Shown here: positions 2,278 to 21,257 of the stretch, piece after piece | How the letters are laid out: each line of letters opens with the position of its first letter | Position numbering within the stretch: the first letter of the stretch is position 1 | Assembly (NCBI RefSeq): GCF_009617755.1 | Contig: NZ_BGZH01000001.1 | Coordinates: forward strand, 620,001-684,000 | Source of the DNA: Marinobacter salsuginis | Lineage (GTDB): Bacteria; Pseudomonadota; Gammaproteobacteria; Pseudomonadales; Oleiphilaceae | Length of the DNA: 64,000 nt | Direction: 5' to 3' | Notes under the pieces: model-generated | Told to the model about the DNA's origin: nothing | Database searches by the model: none | What the model saw: the letters and a program-made list of their open reading frames with translations, nothing else | Program-made: the position numbers and the translations under genes

Positions 2278-2598
2278 GATCAATTCATCCGTTTTGAAGT
2301 AACCGTGATGTCAGGGGGAACATTGGGGGAAGGCTTCCCAGAACCGTGGAGCGCCAAGGATGGCGCGACCGAGCCCTACAGGGACGTATTCACGGGCGTG
2401 TTCTGGGAAGCCTTCCCCCAATGTTCCCTGCACCCAGGCTGAGTTGTTAATGTCGACAGTTTAGCGACAACCCGAACTGCCTCATTGGCACCCCTGACAA
2501 CACCCTACAGGCATTGAGTCAATCCAAAAACTATCCGATTCTTTACCCTGTAGGACGATTCGCATCCAGCAACCCGAATGCAAAACAAGGAAGCCACC
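2278..2598. other. 321-base divergent intergenic region
   Basis: Between the thiolase and FabG genes. It holds the palindromic element at 2312-2430. The remaining 170 bases before the FabG start show no promoter I would defend and no tRNA or small ORF with a ribosome site. Confidence 0.6.
2312..2430 (+). repeat. Palindromic element, copy 1 (variant core)
   Basis: The left arm (2312-2344) and right arm (2400-2430) are reverse complements over about 31 bp except for a two-base length difference at the outer end. They enclose a 55-base core. The core starts with a small hairpin GCGCC-AAGGAT-GGCGC and then contains CCCTACAGGGACGT, in place of the GCGCACATGGA block seen in the other three copies. 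The strand given is the one on which the AAGGAT loop reads. It lies between divergent genes, upstream of the FabG start. Confidence 0.85.
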
Positions 2599-4005
2599 AT
2601 GTCTGACCTCTATCTTAGAATAGTAAACACCCCGGTAGGTAAAACCGCCGCACAATCCCTCGGTCTGCCAGCGCCAGTACCCCTGAAACGCCTCAAACGC
2701 ACCGACCAGCCCTTTATTGAGGGCGACGTGCTGATTGGTGCCGCAGCCGGTGGCAAAGCCATCGCAACCATTGGCAGCACCCTCAGCGCCAGTGCCGCCA
2801 CACTGCACCATGCCAGCGGCAACGAGCGCCTGAACGATTCATCCAAAGCCGGCAACAAAGCCCGACCATTGGACCTGGGGTCGGACATCGACCACAAATT
2901 CTCGGCCCTGGTATTCGACGCCTCTGGCCTGAAAGGCCCCGACGACCTTCGAGCGCTCTACGACTTTTTCCACCCCACCATCAAAAAGCTCGGCAGCAAC
3001 GCTCGCGTTCTGGTCGTTGGCCAGAACCCCGCCACCTGCAGGAAAGCGCCCCAGGCCGCGGCTCAGCAGGCACTGGAAGGATTTGTTCGCAGCGTGGGCA
3101 AGGAAATTGGCAAGAAAGGCTCAACGGCAAACCTGCTGTGGATGGCGCCCGGGGCAGAGAAACAACTGGATTCCAGCGTTCGATTCTTCCTGTCTGCCCG
3201 CTCTGCCTACGTGTCCGGCCAGGTCGTCAAGATCGGCAAACGCGATGCGGCGCCGGCAACCAACCCCGTCGCCCCGCTGACCGGCAAGGTAGCATTGGTC
3301 ACGGGCGCCTCCCGTGGCATAGGCGCCGCCATCGCAGAAACCTTGGCACGGGACGGCGCGACCGTCATTGGTCTGGATATTCCGCCAGCCATGGAAGATC
3401 TACAAAAGGTCACATCCGCTATCAAGGGCAAGGCCCTGGCCTGCGACATTACCGACGACAAAGCACCAAAACTGATCGCCGACTTTATCGACGAGCATTT
3501 CGGCGGGGTGGACCTGGTGATTCACAATGCGGGAATTACCCGCGACAAGACCCTGGGCAACATGCCTGAACACTTCTGGGATATGACCATCGCCGTAAAC
3601 CTGACCGCCGAAGAGTTGATCGACGAGGAACTGGCCAAGCGTGAGCTTATGAAAGACAACGGGCGCATTGTCTGCATCTCCTCCATCAGCGGGATTGCTG
3701 GCAACTTCGGGCAGACCAACTACTCAACCGCCAAATGCGGAGTCATCGGATACGTGGAAGCCATGGCCCGGCAACTGAAAAACGGGGTGACCATCAACGC
3801 GATTGCTCCCGGGTTTATCGAAACCCAGATGACAGCAGCAATGCCGGTCACTATCCGCGAGGCGGGTCGCCGGATGAACAGCCTTTCCCAAGGCGGACAG
3901 CCGGTGGATGTGGCAGAAGCCATCGCCTGGTATTGCAGCCCGGCATCCAATGGAGTGAACGGCAATGTTGTGCGGGTTTGCGGGCAATCGTTGATTGGCA
4001 AATAA
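2599..4005 (+). CDS. fabG: 3-oxoacyl-ACP/CoA reductase, high-molecular-weight FabG type
   Basis: 468-residue NAD(P)H-dependent ketoreductase. The C-terminal half is a classical SDR: TGASRGIG cofactor loop near residue 235, NAG at HNAGITRDK, catalytic Ser in CISSISG and YSTAK (Tyr about residue 375). The first 200 residues form a degenerate Rossmann/flavodoxin-like domain without a cofactor loop, as in mycobacterial FabG4. The ATG at 2599 is preferred over the ATG at 2578 because AAGGAAG lies six bases before it. It is divergent from the thiolase gene, and a strong terminator follows. The natural substrate (ACP or CoA ester) is not settled by sequence. Confidence 0.9.
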   Translation: MSDLYLRIVNTPVGKTAAQSLGLPAPVPLKRLKRTDQPFIEGDVLIGAAAGGKAIATIGSTLSASAATLHHASGNERLNDSSKAGNKARPLDLGSDIDHKFSALVFDASGLKGPDDLRALYDFFHPTIKKLGSNARVLVVGQNPATCRKAPQAAAQQALEGFVRSVGKEIGKKGSTANLLWMAPGAEKQLDSSVRFFLSARSAYVSGQVVKIGKRDAAPATNPVAPLTGKVALVTGASRGIGAAIAETLARDGATVIGLDIPPAMEDLQKVTSAIKGKALACDITDDKAPKLIADFIDEHFGGVDLVIHNAGITRDKTLGNMPEHFWDMTIAVNLTAEELIDEELAKRELMKDNGRIVCISSISGIAGNFGQTNYSTAKCGVIGYVEAMARQLKNGVTINAIAPGFIETQMTAAMPVTIREAGRRMNSLSQGGQPVDVAEAIAWYCSPASNGVNGNVVRVCGQSLIGK

Positions 4006-4010
4006 AAAAA

Positions 4011-4039
4011 GGGCCGATCCTTGCGGATCGGCCCTTTTT
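4011..4039 (+). terminator. Rho-independent terminator
   Basis: The ten-base arms GGGCCGATCC / GGATCGGCCC pair perfectly around TTGC. T5 follows on the plus strand and a run of A precedes, so it can stop both the FabG transcript and the tRNA cluster arriving on the minus strand. Confidence 0.92.
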
Positions 4040-4046
4040 CGAAATT

Positions 4047-4122
4047 TGGTGGGTGGTACTGGGATCGAACCAGTGACCCTCGCCTTGTAAGGGCGATGCT
4101 CTCCCAGCTGAGCTAACCACCC
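4047..4122 (-). tRNA. tRNA-Val (TAC)
   Basis: 76-base cloverleaf on the minus strand with encoded CCA. The acceptor arms are GGGTGGT / ACCACCC and the anticodon loop is CTTACAA. It appears identical to the copy at 4288-4363. It is the last gene of a three-tRNA cluster. Confidence 0.96.
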
Positions 4123-4144
4123 GGGAATACTTTCTAAATAAAAA

Positions 4145-4221
4145 TGGCGGAGCGGACGGGACTCGAACCCGCGACCCCCGGCGTGACAGGCCGGTATTCT
4201 AACCAACTGAACTACCGCTCC
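4145..4221 (-). tRNA. tRNA-Asp (GTC)
   Basis: 77-base cloverleaf with encoded CCA. The acceptor is GGAGCGG / CCGCTCC with discriminator G, and the anticodon loop is CTGTCAC. It sits between two tRNA-Val copies on the same strand. Confidence 0.96.
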
Positions 4222-4287
4222 GCATCAATTCGGCCCTCGGGCTCGAACCTGAAACCGGATGGGGTGATCCGGTGATGCATTTGAAAG

Positions 4288-19952: not shown

Positions 19953-20030
19953 GTCTTCTATTCCTGTTCGTTAAACCGAAGTAACTGAATTAATCGGATT
20001 AATGAGAGTTCGTGCGATTCGCCTCAGCGA

Positions 20031-20318
20031 TCACTCAAGCACGCCGTAAATGTCGCTCTCGCTCATGATGAGGAGCTCTTCGCCGTCGATCTTGACGGTG
20101 TTACCGGCGTACTGGCCGAAGACCACGGTGTCACCCACCTTGACCGCCAGTGAGCGGGTTTCGCCGTTTTCCAGAATGCGACCGTTACCAACGGCAATCA
20201 CCTCACCCTGGGAAGGCTTCTCTTTGGCGTTACCCGGCAGCACGATGCCACCCGCAGTTTTCTCTTCTTCTTCCTTACGGCGCACGACAACACGATCGTG
20301 TAGCGGACGAATTTTCAT
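20031..20318 (-). CDS. groES: Co-chaperonin GroES (10 kDa)
   Basis: 95 residues, lid of the GroEL folding chamber. It begins [18 protein letters not shown], has the mobile loop [15 protein letters not shown], and ends in [12 protein letters not shown]. It is first gene of the groES-groEL operon, preceded by a sigma-32 type promoter at 20464-20492 and by fxsA, the same neighbour order as in enterobacteria. Confidence 0.98.
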
Positions 20319-20463
20319 TGCTCGGTTTCTCCAATAGTCAGATTAATGTGGCAATGACATTGTTGATGTTGGTCGGATCGGCAAAACCGGACCCGACAAA
20401 TTGCCCGGCTGGATAACCAACTGTTTTCAGTGGAAATCAGCCTGCAGCGAACTTGTGGTTCCT

Positions 20464-20492
20464 ATTTGGGGTAGGGGGTAGGTGTTTTCAAC
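20464..20492 (-). promoter_or_regulatory. Sigma-32 heat-shock promoter of groESL
   Basis: On the minus strand the sequence reads GTTGAAA, a 14-base spacer, then CCCCAAAT. This closely matches the heat-shock consensus CTTGAAA-N14-CCCCATNT. It predicts a leader of about 140 bases before groES. The -35 part also overlaps a small hairpin GGTGTT..AACACC. Confidence 0.85.
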
Positions 20493-20511
20493 ACCCCGGA
20501 GAGAAATTTTT

Positions 20512-21060
20512 TCACTTTTTTTCGATCCGGTCCCGATCGGATTCCGTCTCGTCCTGATACTCGCCTTCTATGATGTCGCCGTTGCTGTCCCTGTCAAACG
20601 GGCGTTGCCGACCGAAGGGATTTTCGCGGCCACCGAACGGATCCTGCCCGAAAGGGTTCGACCCGCCGCCGGCACGGAAATAGAAGCTGCTGCTCCGGCT
20701 TTGCCCAGCTACAACCATACGCTTGAGCGCCTGGGCTGCCAGCCAGTGACGGGACCCGGGAATCAGGCACAGAAAACCGACCGTATCGGTGATAAAACCC
20801 GGCGTCAGCAGCAAGGCGCCGCCAATGGCCAGAATCAGCCCCTCGGCAACCTCCCTGGCCGGCAATTCCCCACTGTTCAGCCGCTGATTGGCCTTCAATA
20901 GCGTGGCAAGGCCCTGCTGGCGAAGCAGCCACGCACCGATCACGGCAGTCAGCAGAACCAGCCCGATGGTATTAAGCACACCAATCATGCCGCCGACCTG
21001 GATCAGAACCGCCATCTCGGCGATTGGCATGATGATAAAGAGAAAAAGAAACACGGACAT
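20512..21060 (-). CDS. fxsA: FxsA family membrane protein
   Basis: 182 residues. It has hydrophobic segments at about 2-17, 25-44 and 75-98, the conserved MPIAEMAVLIQVGGMIG and ALLLTPGFITDTVGFLCLIPGSR motifs of FxsA, and a Gly/Arg/Asp-rich cytoplasmic tail. In E. coli FxsA affects phage F exclusion; the normal cellular role is not known. Its position just upstream of groES is conserved. It is divergent from an SDR gene across element copy 4. Confidence 0.9.
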   Translation of the reverse strand: MSVFLFLFIIMPIAEMAVLIQVGGMIGVLNTIGLVLLTAVIGAWLLRQQGLATLLKANQRLNSGELPAREVAEGLILAIGGALLLTPGFITDTVGFLCLIPGSRHWLAAQALKRMVVAGQSRSSSFYFRAGGGSNPFGQDPFGGRENPFGRQRPFDRDSNGDIIEGEYQDETESDRDRIEKK

Positions 21061-21155
21061 CGGGACCTCAGGGTCTGAGCAGGAATTTCAGAAGGTCTGG
21101 TATACTCGCAGCCCTTCAGTTTCTAACAAGAAGCCATGCACATGGCTCAACGCAT

Positions 21156-21257
21156 CAGTGACACCGGGCCTCCGTGGAATGTTGGAGGCCAAGGATGGCC
21201 GGAAACAAGCGCACATGGACGTGCTTGTAGCGGTTCCACGGAGGCCCGGTGTCACTG
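21156..21257 (+). repeat. Palindromic element, copy 4
   Basis: The arms 21156-21179 and 21234-21257 are perfect 24-bp reverse complements. The 54-base core has the first hairpin AGGCC-AAGGAT-GGCC and the second GCAC-ATGGAC-GTGC, then TTGTAGCGG. It lies between the divergent fxsA and SDR genes, in the orientation of the SDR gene. Confidence 0.92.

Follow-up and report, generated by a model that had tools for sequence, protein, structure and literature searches.

Introduction

The TwoAYGGAY RNA is listed in a table of Weinberg et al. 2010 (PMC2864571), and a 2014 account (PMC4333381) gives it as being of unknown function, with CsrA binding proposed and with a poorly conserved external stem; the same account mentions tandem GA pairs in one of its stems (papers are cited by PubMed Central number, from excerpts of their text). 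For CsrA, systematic evolution of ligands by exponential enrichment (SELEX) gave the consensus RUACARGGAUGU, and the protein bridges sites 10-63 nucleotides (nt) apart, best at more than 18 (PMC7652899). TwoAYGGAY (RF01731) and CsrB are placed in the same Rfam clan, CL00106. CsrA-sequestering small RNAs are described in Alcanivorax and Alteromonas, in excerpts that concern RNAs other than the element reported here. The window analysed here, 64,000 nt of the Marinobacter salsuginis genome (assembly GCF_009617755.1, contig NZ_BGZH01000001.1, positions 620,001 to 684,000), holds four intergenic palindromes that share a core. They are members of a large dispersed intergenic hairpin family, with some 70-90 or more copies in the genome, and this family is very likely TwoAYGGAY-like. 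The statement of the initial annotation that nothing of this design had been described is therefore not supported, since TwoAYGGAY resembles the elements. In window coordinates, the four elements and their core hairpins are:

Element 1, 2316..2428, plus strand: arms 2316-2344 and 2400-2428, 29 bp, perfect; core 2345-2399
Element 1 hairpin 1, 2353..2364, plus strand: GCC-AAGGAT-GGC
Element 1 hairpin 2, 2378..2387, plus strand: ACAGGGACGT
Element 2, 6911..7022, plus strand: arms 6911-6939 and 6994-7022, 29 nt, 93% complementary; core 6940-6993
Element 2 hairpin 1, 6948..6959, plus strand: GCC-AGGGAT-GGC
Element 2 hairpin 2, 6973..6982, plus strand: ACATGGAAGT
Element 3, 7609..7718, minus strand: arms 7691-7718 and 7609-7636, 27/28 paired (96%); core 7637-7690
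Element 3 hairpin 1, 7671..7682, minus strand: GCC-AGGGAC-GGC
Element 3 hairpin 2, 7648..7657, minus strand: ACATGGATGT
Element 4, 21152..21261, plus strand: arms 21152-21179 and 21234-21261, 27/28 paired (96%); core 21180-21233
Element 4 hairpin 1, 21188..21199, plus strand: GCC-AAGGAT-GGC
Element 4 hairpin 2, 21213..21222, plus strand: ACATGGACGT

A dispersed family of intergenic hairpins

The four core-sharing palindromes are real where the initial annotation had placed them. Among six inverted repeats in the window (arms of at least 18 nt, copies at most 150 apart) they are the four longest and best, and the folding energy of each lies 9.2-10.4 standard deviations under that of dinucleotide shuffles, none of 200 shuffles equalling it. 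Their arms are separated by 54-55 nt in every case; the layout is common to the four, as proposed, except that the other three copies are on the plus strand and 7609-7718 is on the minus strand.

A loose two-loop sequence pattern found 68 copies in the 4.15-Mb genome, and the reversed pattern, used as a control, found none. A covariance model built from these copies matched at least 91 places at E <= 0.001, with scores of 58 bits or higher for at least 86; the counts are lower bounds because the best 150 of 2401 first-look candidates were scored. The expectation that a genome search would return tens of copies with a nearly constant core length and covarying arms was thus borne out, and a yield of just the four copies, named as the opposite outcome, did not occur.

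Read along the sense strand, the 5' arm is followed by hairpin 1, which has an ANGGA loop, then by hairpin 2, which contains ACANGGANGT, and last by the 3' arm. The arms are present in all 68 pattern copies (20-32 bp under strict extension; without mismatch in 30), and the core measures 53-58 nt in 61 distinct versions. A consensus is retained over their inner ~11 bp, where CTTTCCAAAA(C/A) pairs with (G/T)TTTTGGAAAG; further out, the 5' arm is rich in G (52%). Between copies, arm identity is 0.67 over the inner 11 positions and 0.39 over the outer part, against 0.34 from composition alone; no two copies have identical arms, the best of 2278 pairs reaching 0.91 over the whole arm and 0.83 over the outer part. 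The claim that the arms are unlike between copies consequently stands for their outer part and fails for the inner one. GGA-to-GGA spacing in the two loops is 20-22 nt in 68/68 copies, though the pattern permitted a wider range. The ANGGA loops themselves are fixed by construction of the pattern; the N within them is T, A or G in 31, 19 and 18 copies in loop 1, and T, G, C or A in 46, 13, 8 and 1 in loop 2. The covariance model, itself built from pattern-selected copies, gave 39 matches in two other genomes; all 39 have ANGGA in loop 1 and 34 have ACANGGANGT in loop 2.

Pairing in the 68 sequences exceeds that of shuffles: 87.9% of paired cells against 68.6% by pair counting, a covariation score of 0.507 against 0.166 (slid controls 0.07-0.13) and 391 double-change cells against 127. 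Pairing reaches 99.5% over the inner 14 arm pairs, 13 of which have changed on both sides. Hairpins 1 and 2 are only 75% and 79% paired because subfamilies differ; in one subfamily, hairpin 1 contains a GGA/GGA internal loop. One strand is shown to be able to fold into a long stem that closes a core with two ANGGA-loop hairpins at a fixed spacing.

Some sequence features recur around the elements. There is a weak common tail, CCCAA...CAGGCTAGG, just 3' of the 3' arm, and AGGCTA occurs there in 11/68 copies against 0.5 expected. Upstream, CTAATC is enriched about 22-fold (8/68). A second small palindromic repeat (GTCGGATTACG...CTAATCCGACCTAC) lies between outward-facing element pairs at three loci of the same genome (L007, L018 and L060). 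In another genome, G056, a long-core variant (L117:18706-18867) has ~80 nt of extra hairpins inside the same arms, its second GGA loop being ATGGG; weak model matches of this variant, also with ATGGG as second GGA loop, lie at L117:11387 and L123:17031 (G056) and at L139:18547 (G085).

Likeness to TwoAYGGAY and predicted CsrA sites

When RF01731 was run on the genome at E <= 10, with the best 150 of 196 candidates scored, at least 32 matches were obtained, 31 of these 32 being the elements described here, over model positions 1-168 and with a best score of 41.8 bits (gathering cut-off 43 bits). Across the genus, with 51 candidates scored per genome, the cut-off was passed in 6/41 genomes by at least eight matches (best 49.8 bits). 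All four above-cut-off loci that were opened carry the same element, with arms of 25-35 bp, and a fifth match (G028:C1:3607388-3607509) overlaps a pattern copy. One of 13 loci from other lineages is also over the cut-off (L167, genome G243, 45.2 bits). Within the window, Rfam at gathering cut-offs returned four tRNAs only, and RF01731 was not listed in an E-value scan of positions 1-24000; it surfaced in the whole-genome family search. The label "TwoAYGGAY-like" is used because the copies in the genome of the window miss the RF01731 cut-off. The external stem of TwoAYGGAY has its equivalent in the arms, found in 68/68 copies and without conserved sequence in their outer part; its AYGGAY loop motif is matched in part only, the N varying among the copies.

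Hairpin 2 matches the CsrA SELEX consensus (PMC7652899, as excerpted) except at its variable N; the loop GGA in an ACA..GGA..GU context and the constant 20-22 nt spacing, which lies within the bridgeable range, are both features of CsrA sites. The csrA gene is present in this genome and in 97/100 genus genomes. RsmZ (RF00166) has no match above cut-off in this genome and has weak matches also in 8/14 control genomes, the CsrB and RsmY models not having been searched. Judged on these motifs, binding of CsrA by the hairpins, once transcribed, is a serious candidate for their function that falls slightly short of probable. Transcription of the elements would probably depend on read-through out of neighbouring genes. 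A CsrA/RsmA dimer might then be bound by the two ANGGA hairpins, with the long stem as a stabilising clamp whose exact sequence would matter little, and the copies together could act as a distributed CsrA decoy or, alternatively, as CsrA-docking parts of untranslated regions. Among open-licence PMC papers, we found neither a later test of the CsrA hypothesis for TwoAYGGAY nor a description of the family as a dispersed Marinobacter repeat.

Strand-specific mismatches

Mismatches in the arms, scored with all kinds treated alike, are unevenly distributed. Read on the ANGGA strand, they tend to retain G: 70 elements of the genome have GU 45, GG 11 and GA 16 times versus AC 4, CC 2 and UC 1; the complementary strand would give the reverse bias. 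The GU:AC ratio is 19:1 in 39 elements at other Marinobacter loci and 23:3 in the 34 elements of G085 and G056 combined, a set whose GA:UC ratio is just 6:4. The Marinobacter bias of GU over AC therefore fits selection on the fold of the ANGGA strand. RNA is the simplest and most likely reading of this strand selection, single-stranded DNA being the alternative. A role of the palindrome at the DNA level only, as a cruciform, a nucleoid or gyrase site or a transcription barrier with loops kept for a DNA-binding protein, would agree with a core that inverts and with the lack of promoter or terminator signals and of clear orientation bias reported below, but is very improbable, since the mismatch bias marks one strand where a cruciform exposes both and the loops correspond to an RNA-protein motif and an RNA family that are both already known.

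Paired change of the arms and inversion of the core

Seventeen orthologous elements were compared between the genome of the window (G000) and G085, sites with unequal counts being dropped and elements paired by order within a site. Mean identity is 0.797 for arms, 0.826 for flanks and 0.945 for the core, with unrelated arms aligning at 0.643 as a baseline. The arms therefore change about as fast as the flanking DNA and keep their pairing; ~96% of arm pairs stay Watson-Crick across copies and species. The alignment covers 466 arm pairs. Substitution of both partners gave another Watson-Crick pair in 63 of them (28 by transition-type and 35 by transversion-type change) and a combination other than Watson-Crick in 4; in 29 a single partner was substituted. 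The suggestion of the initial annotation that a mutation in one arm is copied into the other gains weight from these figures, as the paired changes look like arm-to-arm copying.

The core, too, has been turned around. At element 1 (2316-2428) it has the plus orientation here and in G085 and is the reverse complement in G056, where its identity to element 1 is 0.89 reversed and 0.52 forward; it sits there between matching arms, and the 45-nt flanks are 91-96% identical. This site was followed over 30 loci, 12 of which have the element; a reversed core was found in two of these, G056, where the flanks confirm it, and G001, where the orientation call indicates it.

Template switching by DNA polymerase across inverted repeats leaves a published signature of homogenised arms and an inverted spacer (PMC8604942), and template switching has been proposed to create and maintain RNA hairpins (PMC8794818). 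The excess of paired changes together with core inversion therefore fits template switching across the palindrome, and we consider it probable that this process keeps the arms complementary. During replication, one arm would serve as the template for the other, and switching between strands would also invert the core. In addition, mismatches that are bad on one strand would be purged by selection for the folding of that strand, most likely as RNA.

The best of the other explanations, in our judgement unlikely, is that selection on the RNA stem alone has kept it, through two-step compensatory mutations with G-U intermediates and no special DNA process. The strong covariation agrees with this, as do the wobble mismatches, the commonest and strand-specific, and the prevalence of one-sided over paired changes in the closest arms (given below). 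When two-step selection is modelled at equilibrium, with a fit to the mismatch frequencies observed and with 150-nt flanks as the source of the neutral rate, 0.2-0.4% paired changes are expected at the divergence of G000 and G085, so that those observed are ~30-70 times above this expectation, 35 of the 63 being of the transversion type. Two-step selection also sits badly with arms that diverge about like flanking DNA and are nevertheless paired to ~96%, and leaves core inversion unexplained.

Gain and loss of elements

In a 284-kb stretch with 23 sites, a counterpart element was found at 19/23 in G085 and at 11/23 in G056. Some of the sites scored as absent in G056 carry the longer-core variant missed by the detector (722499 and 845857), and three G056 absences are losses that left arm remnants (721530, 835876 and 840818), as palindrome deletion predicts. 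The only clean empty site, 641152 in G085 (the site of element 4), shows neither arm in the alignment, hence no pre-existing arm there, and no clear target duplication. The proposal that arms are made by copying one flank, for which comparison of empty sites was to reveal an arm already in place, thus finds no support in this site or in the G056 losses.

It is quite unlikely, and even less likely than two-step compensation, that the family is a mobile element related to miniature inverted-repeat transposable elements (MITEs) or to repetitive extragenic palindromic (REP) sequences, which would insert the core, capture or build arms at each site and depend on a transposase in trans. Dispersed intergenic copies, presence or absence between species and the seven close pairs, all back to back, are what such an element would produce, and a hairpin of single-stranded DNA could be another source of the strand-specific mismatches. 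However, the arms of each of the 68 copies are unique, and the terminal arms, apart from the inner ~11 bp, are not common to copies as MITE ends would be; most elements of the 284-kb stretch, as counted above, have a same-site counterpart in G085; and one 58-nt core had no match in phage and plasmid collections. The Y1 transposase, the only transposase family searched (PF01797, Y1_Tnp, that of the REP-associated tyrosine transposases, RAYTs), has 0 matches in the genome of the window and none in 44/100 genus genomes, five of which have more than 70 pattern copies. A RAYT/REP element was ruled out on the zero PF01797 matches, and a link of the arms to a known REP or MITE family, which the initial annotation had allowed for, was not found.

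Genomic context and transcription signals

Gene context was taken from a home-made gene caller, by which 0/68 copies overlap a predicted gene by more than 25 nt. Relative to the element, the upstream and downstream genes are oriented (+,-) in 22 cases, (-,-) in 17, (+,+) in 15 and (-,+) in 14, so the link to divergent genes drawn from the window was a small-sample effect. Seven element pairs are less than 170 bp apart, and all seven are back to back, pointing outward.

Other candidate identities were tried and rejected. A small RNA with its own promoter was suggested by an apparent TATAAC upstream of some copies, which failed a scored test. An intrinsic terminator is excluded by the lack of any run of four or more T within 15 nt past the 3' arm in 68/68 copies, with a separate downstream terminator in one copy. 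A leader or 3' untranslated element bound to one gene orientation does not agree with the neighbour counts above. For arms as guides to other loci, 23 elements gave one match of at least 16 nt outside the own element within their 284-kb stretch.

In the window, the genes adjoining the elements encode a thiolase, a short-chain dehydrogenase, PurE, PurK, FxsA and another short-chain dehydrogenase; the protein of 5833-6804 is without a Pfam match at 1e-8. Element 2 lies upstream of purE and has orthologues in other Marinobacter. Element 3 lies between purE and purK, antisense to both, and is missing from G056 and G085 and found in other species; presence of the purE-purK elements varies between species. 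PurE, whose gene separates elements 2 and 3, shares 98% identity with its counterpart in Marinobacter sp. BW6 and 95% with the one in M. maroccanus. Elsewhere in the window, a GC-rich hairpin followed by T-runs at 18197-18253 is likely a strong intrinsic terminator, which several Rfam families match weakly, and two identical tRNA genes (4050-4122 and 4291-4363) flank a third (4148-4221), a local tRNA duplication.

Distribution across genomes

Pattern copies occur in 98/100 genus genomes (0-96 per genome), 73 of which have at least 20. At the family level the pattern is present in 37/61 genomes and numerous only in the genus, genus g10 and one g16 genome; at the class level it is present in 49/369, few of them rich in copies. 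The same design recurs in distant lineages, with six elements from five G108 loci and at 3/3 G500, 2/2 G243 and 1/1 G459 loci. It was seen too at 4/12 loci of the set L093-L104 (L097 among them repeats a G500 element, and L102 is odd-looking) and at 1/68 PurE loci (L180-L247), that of Halomonas salipaludis (L196). The arm detector found no element at five G288 and four G369 loci despite many pattern hits in both genomes; these hits may therefore be something else. One core had no match in E. coli genomes at E 1e-5.

Two further observations concern distant lineages. Genomes G288, G400 and G496 (family f150) have 77, 35 and 23 pattern copies, as two-ANGGA repeats of different spacing. The related elements of the G500 loci (L162-L164) have near-perfect arms of 41-45 bp, similar to each other in 2/3 and unlike those of Marinobacter.

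Weighing the combined interpretation

On balance we lean towards a single interpretation that joins these results, namely a TwoAYGGAY-like RNA element whose arms are kept by template switching, with selection on one strand and putative CsrA binding. Several observations weigh against it. Two of the five covariation measures are level with shuffles (22 both-side changed pairs vs 19.6, and 56 further pair types vs 57.1), and none of the 32 RF01731 matches in the genome of the window reaches the cut-off. Over the 68 copies there is no clear orientation bias relative to neighbouring genes, which is awkward for a cis role, as is core inversion; no sigma70-like promoter is enriched upstream (mean score 6.01 vs 6.06 on the other side and 6.17 shuffled), and a sense-strand T-run terminator lies within 150 nt downstream in only 1/68. 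Two genus genomes, G049 and G072, have csrA yet no pattern match. Four elements of distant lineages lack the mismatch bias (GU 1, AC 3). Among the most similar arms (90% identity or more), 28 changes affect one side only, against 6 that are paired and Watson-Crick and 3 that are paired without being Watson-Crick, in a comparison of two overlapping sets; correction of the arms therefore lags behind mutation, which is compatible with template copying and also with slow compensation. Because some orthologous arms are near the unrelated-arm baseline (0.64), replacement of whole arms is possible. The text of PMC8794818, as excerpted, terms its own evidence for stem maintenance circumstantial, and earlier work cited in PMC8604942 found proteobacterial short inverted repeats to be more conserved than their surroundings, unlike the Marinobacter arms, which are not.

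A wider picture, which we advance tentatively, is that template switching writes the stems, so that some 90 long hairpins per genome stay near-perfect while drifting, with the core sometimes inverted, and distributed putative CsrA decoys persist without a conserved stem or a transposase. If so, core inversion would flip which of the neighbouring transcripts carries the CsrA sites. A genus with many copies makes the CsrA hypothesis for TwoAYGGAY testable, because 73 of its 100 genomes hold at least 20 pattern copies. With dozens of stems per genome that can be aligned as replicates, across many related species, the family is also a natural record of stem rewriting, in which two-step compensation and one-step template switching in long RNA stems can be measured directly, core inversions included.

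Comparison with known systems

REP and REPIN elements are intergenic, multicopy and palindromic, sometimes in inverted pairs, and in this they are like the Marinobacter elements; they differ in that the Marinobacter genome has no Y1_Tnp match and that its arms are copy-specific. CsrB/RsmZ-type RNAs are encoded at few loci each. With these small RNAs of clan CL00106 the elements share GGA hairpins, paired sites at bridging distance and the clan itself, and they differ from them by having two sites per element where those RNAs have many, by their many loci, and in that neither promoter nor terminator of their own was found. The published template-switch cases (PMC8604942 and PMC8794818, as excerpted) have arm homogenisation, multiple paired changes and between-arm inversion in common with the elements; they concern yeast genes and hairpins of rRNA and microRNA, whereas in Marinobacter one genome has dozens of related loci, the arms are ~28 bp long and the inverted core measures 55 nt. 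The closest likeness is to TwoAYGGAY, with which, to the extent that the excerpted sources describe it, the elements share, on the same strand, a core with two GGA-loop hairpins and, closing it, an external stem of low conservation. Unlike TwoAYGGAY as described there, the Marinobacter elements are dispersed in ~70-90 copies in one genome, invert their core, and have a stem of ~20-35 bp that is nearly perfect and specific to each copy.

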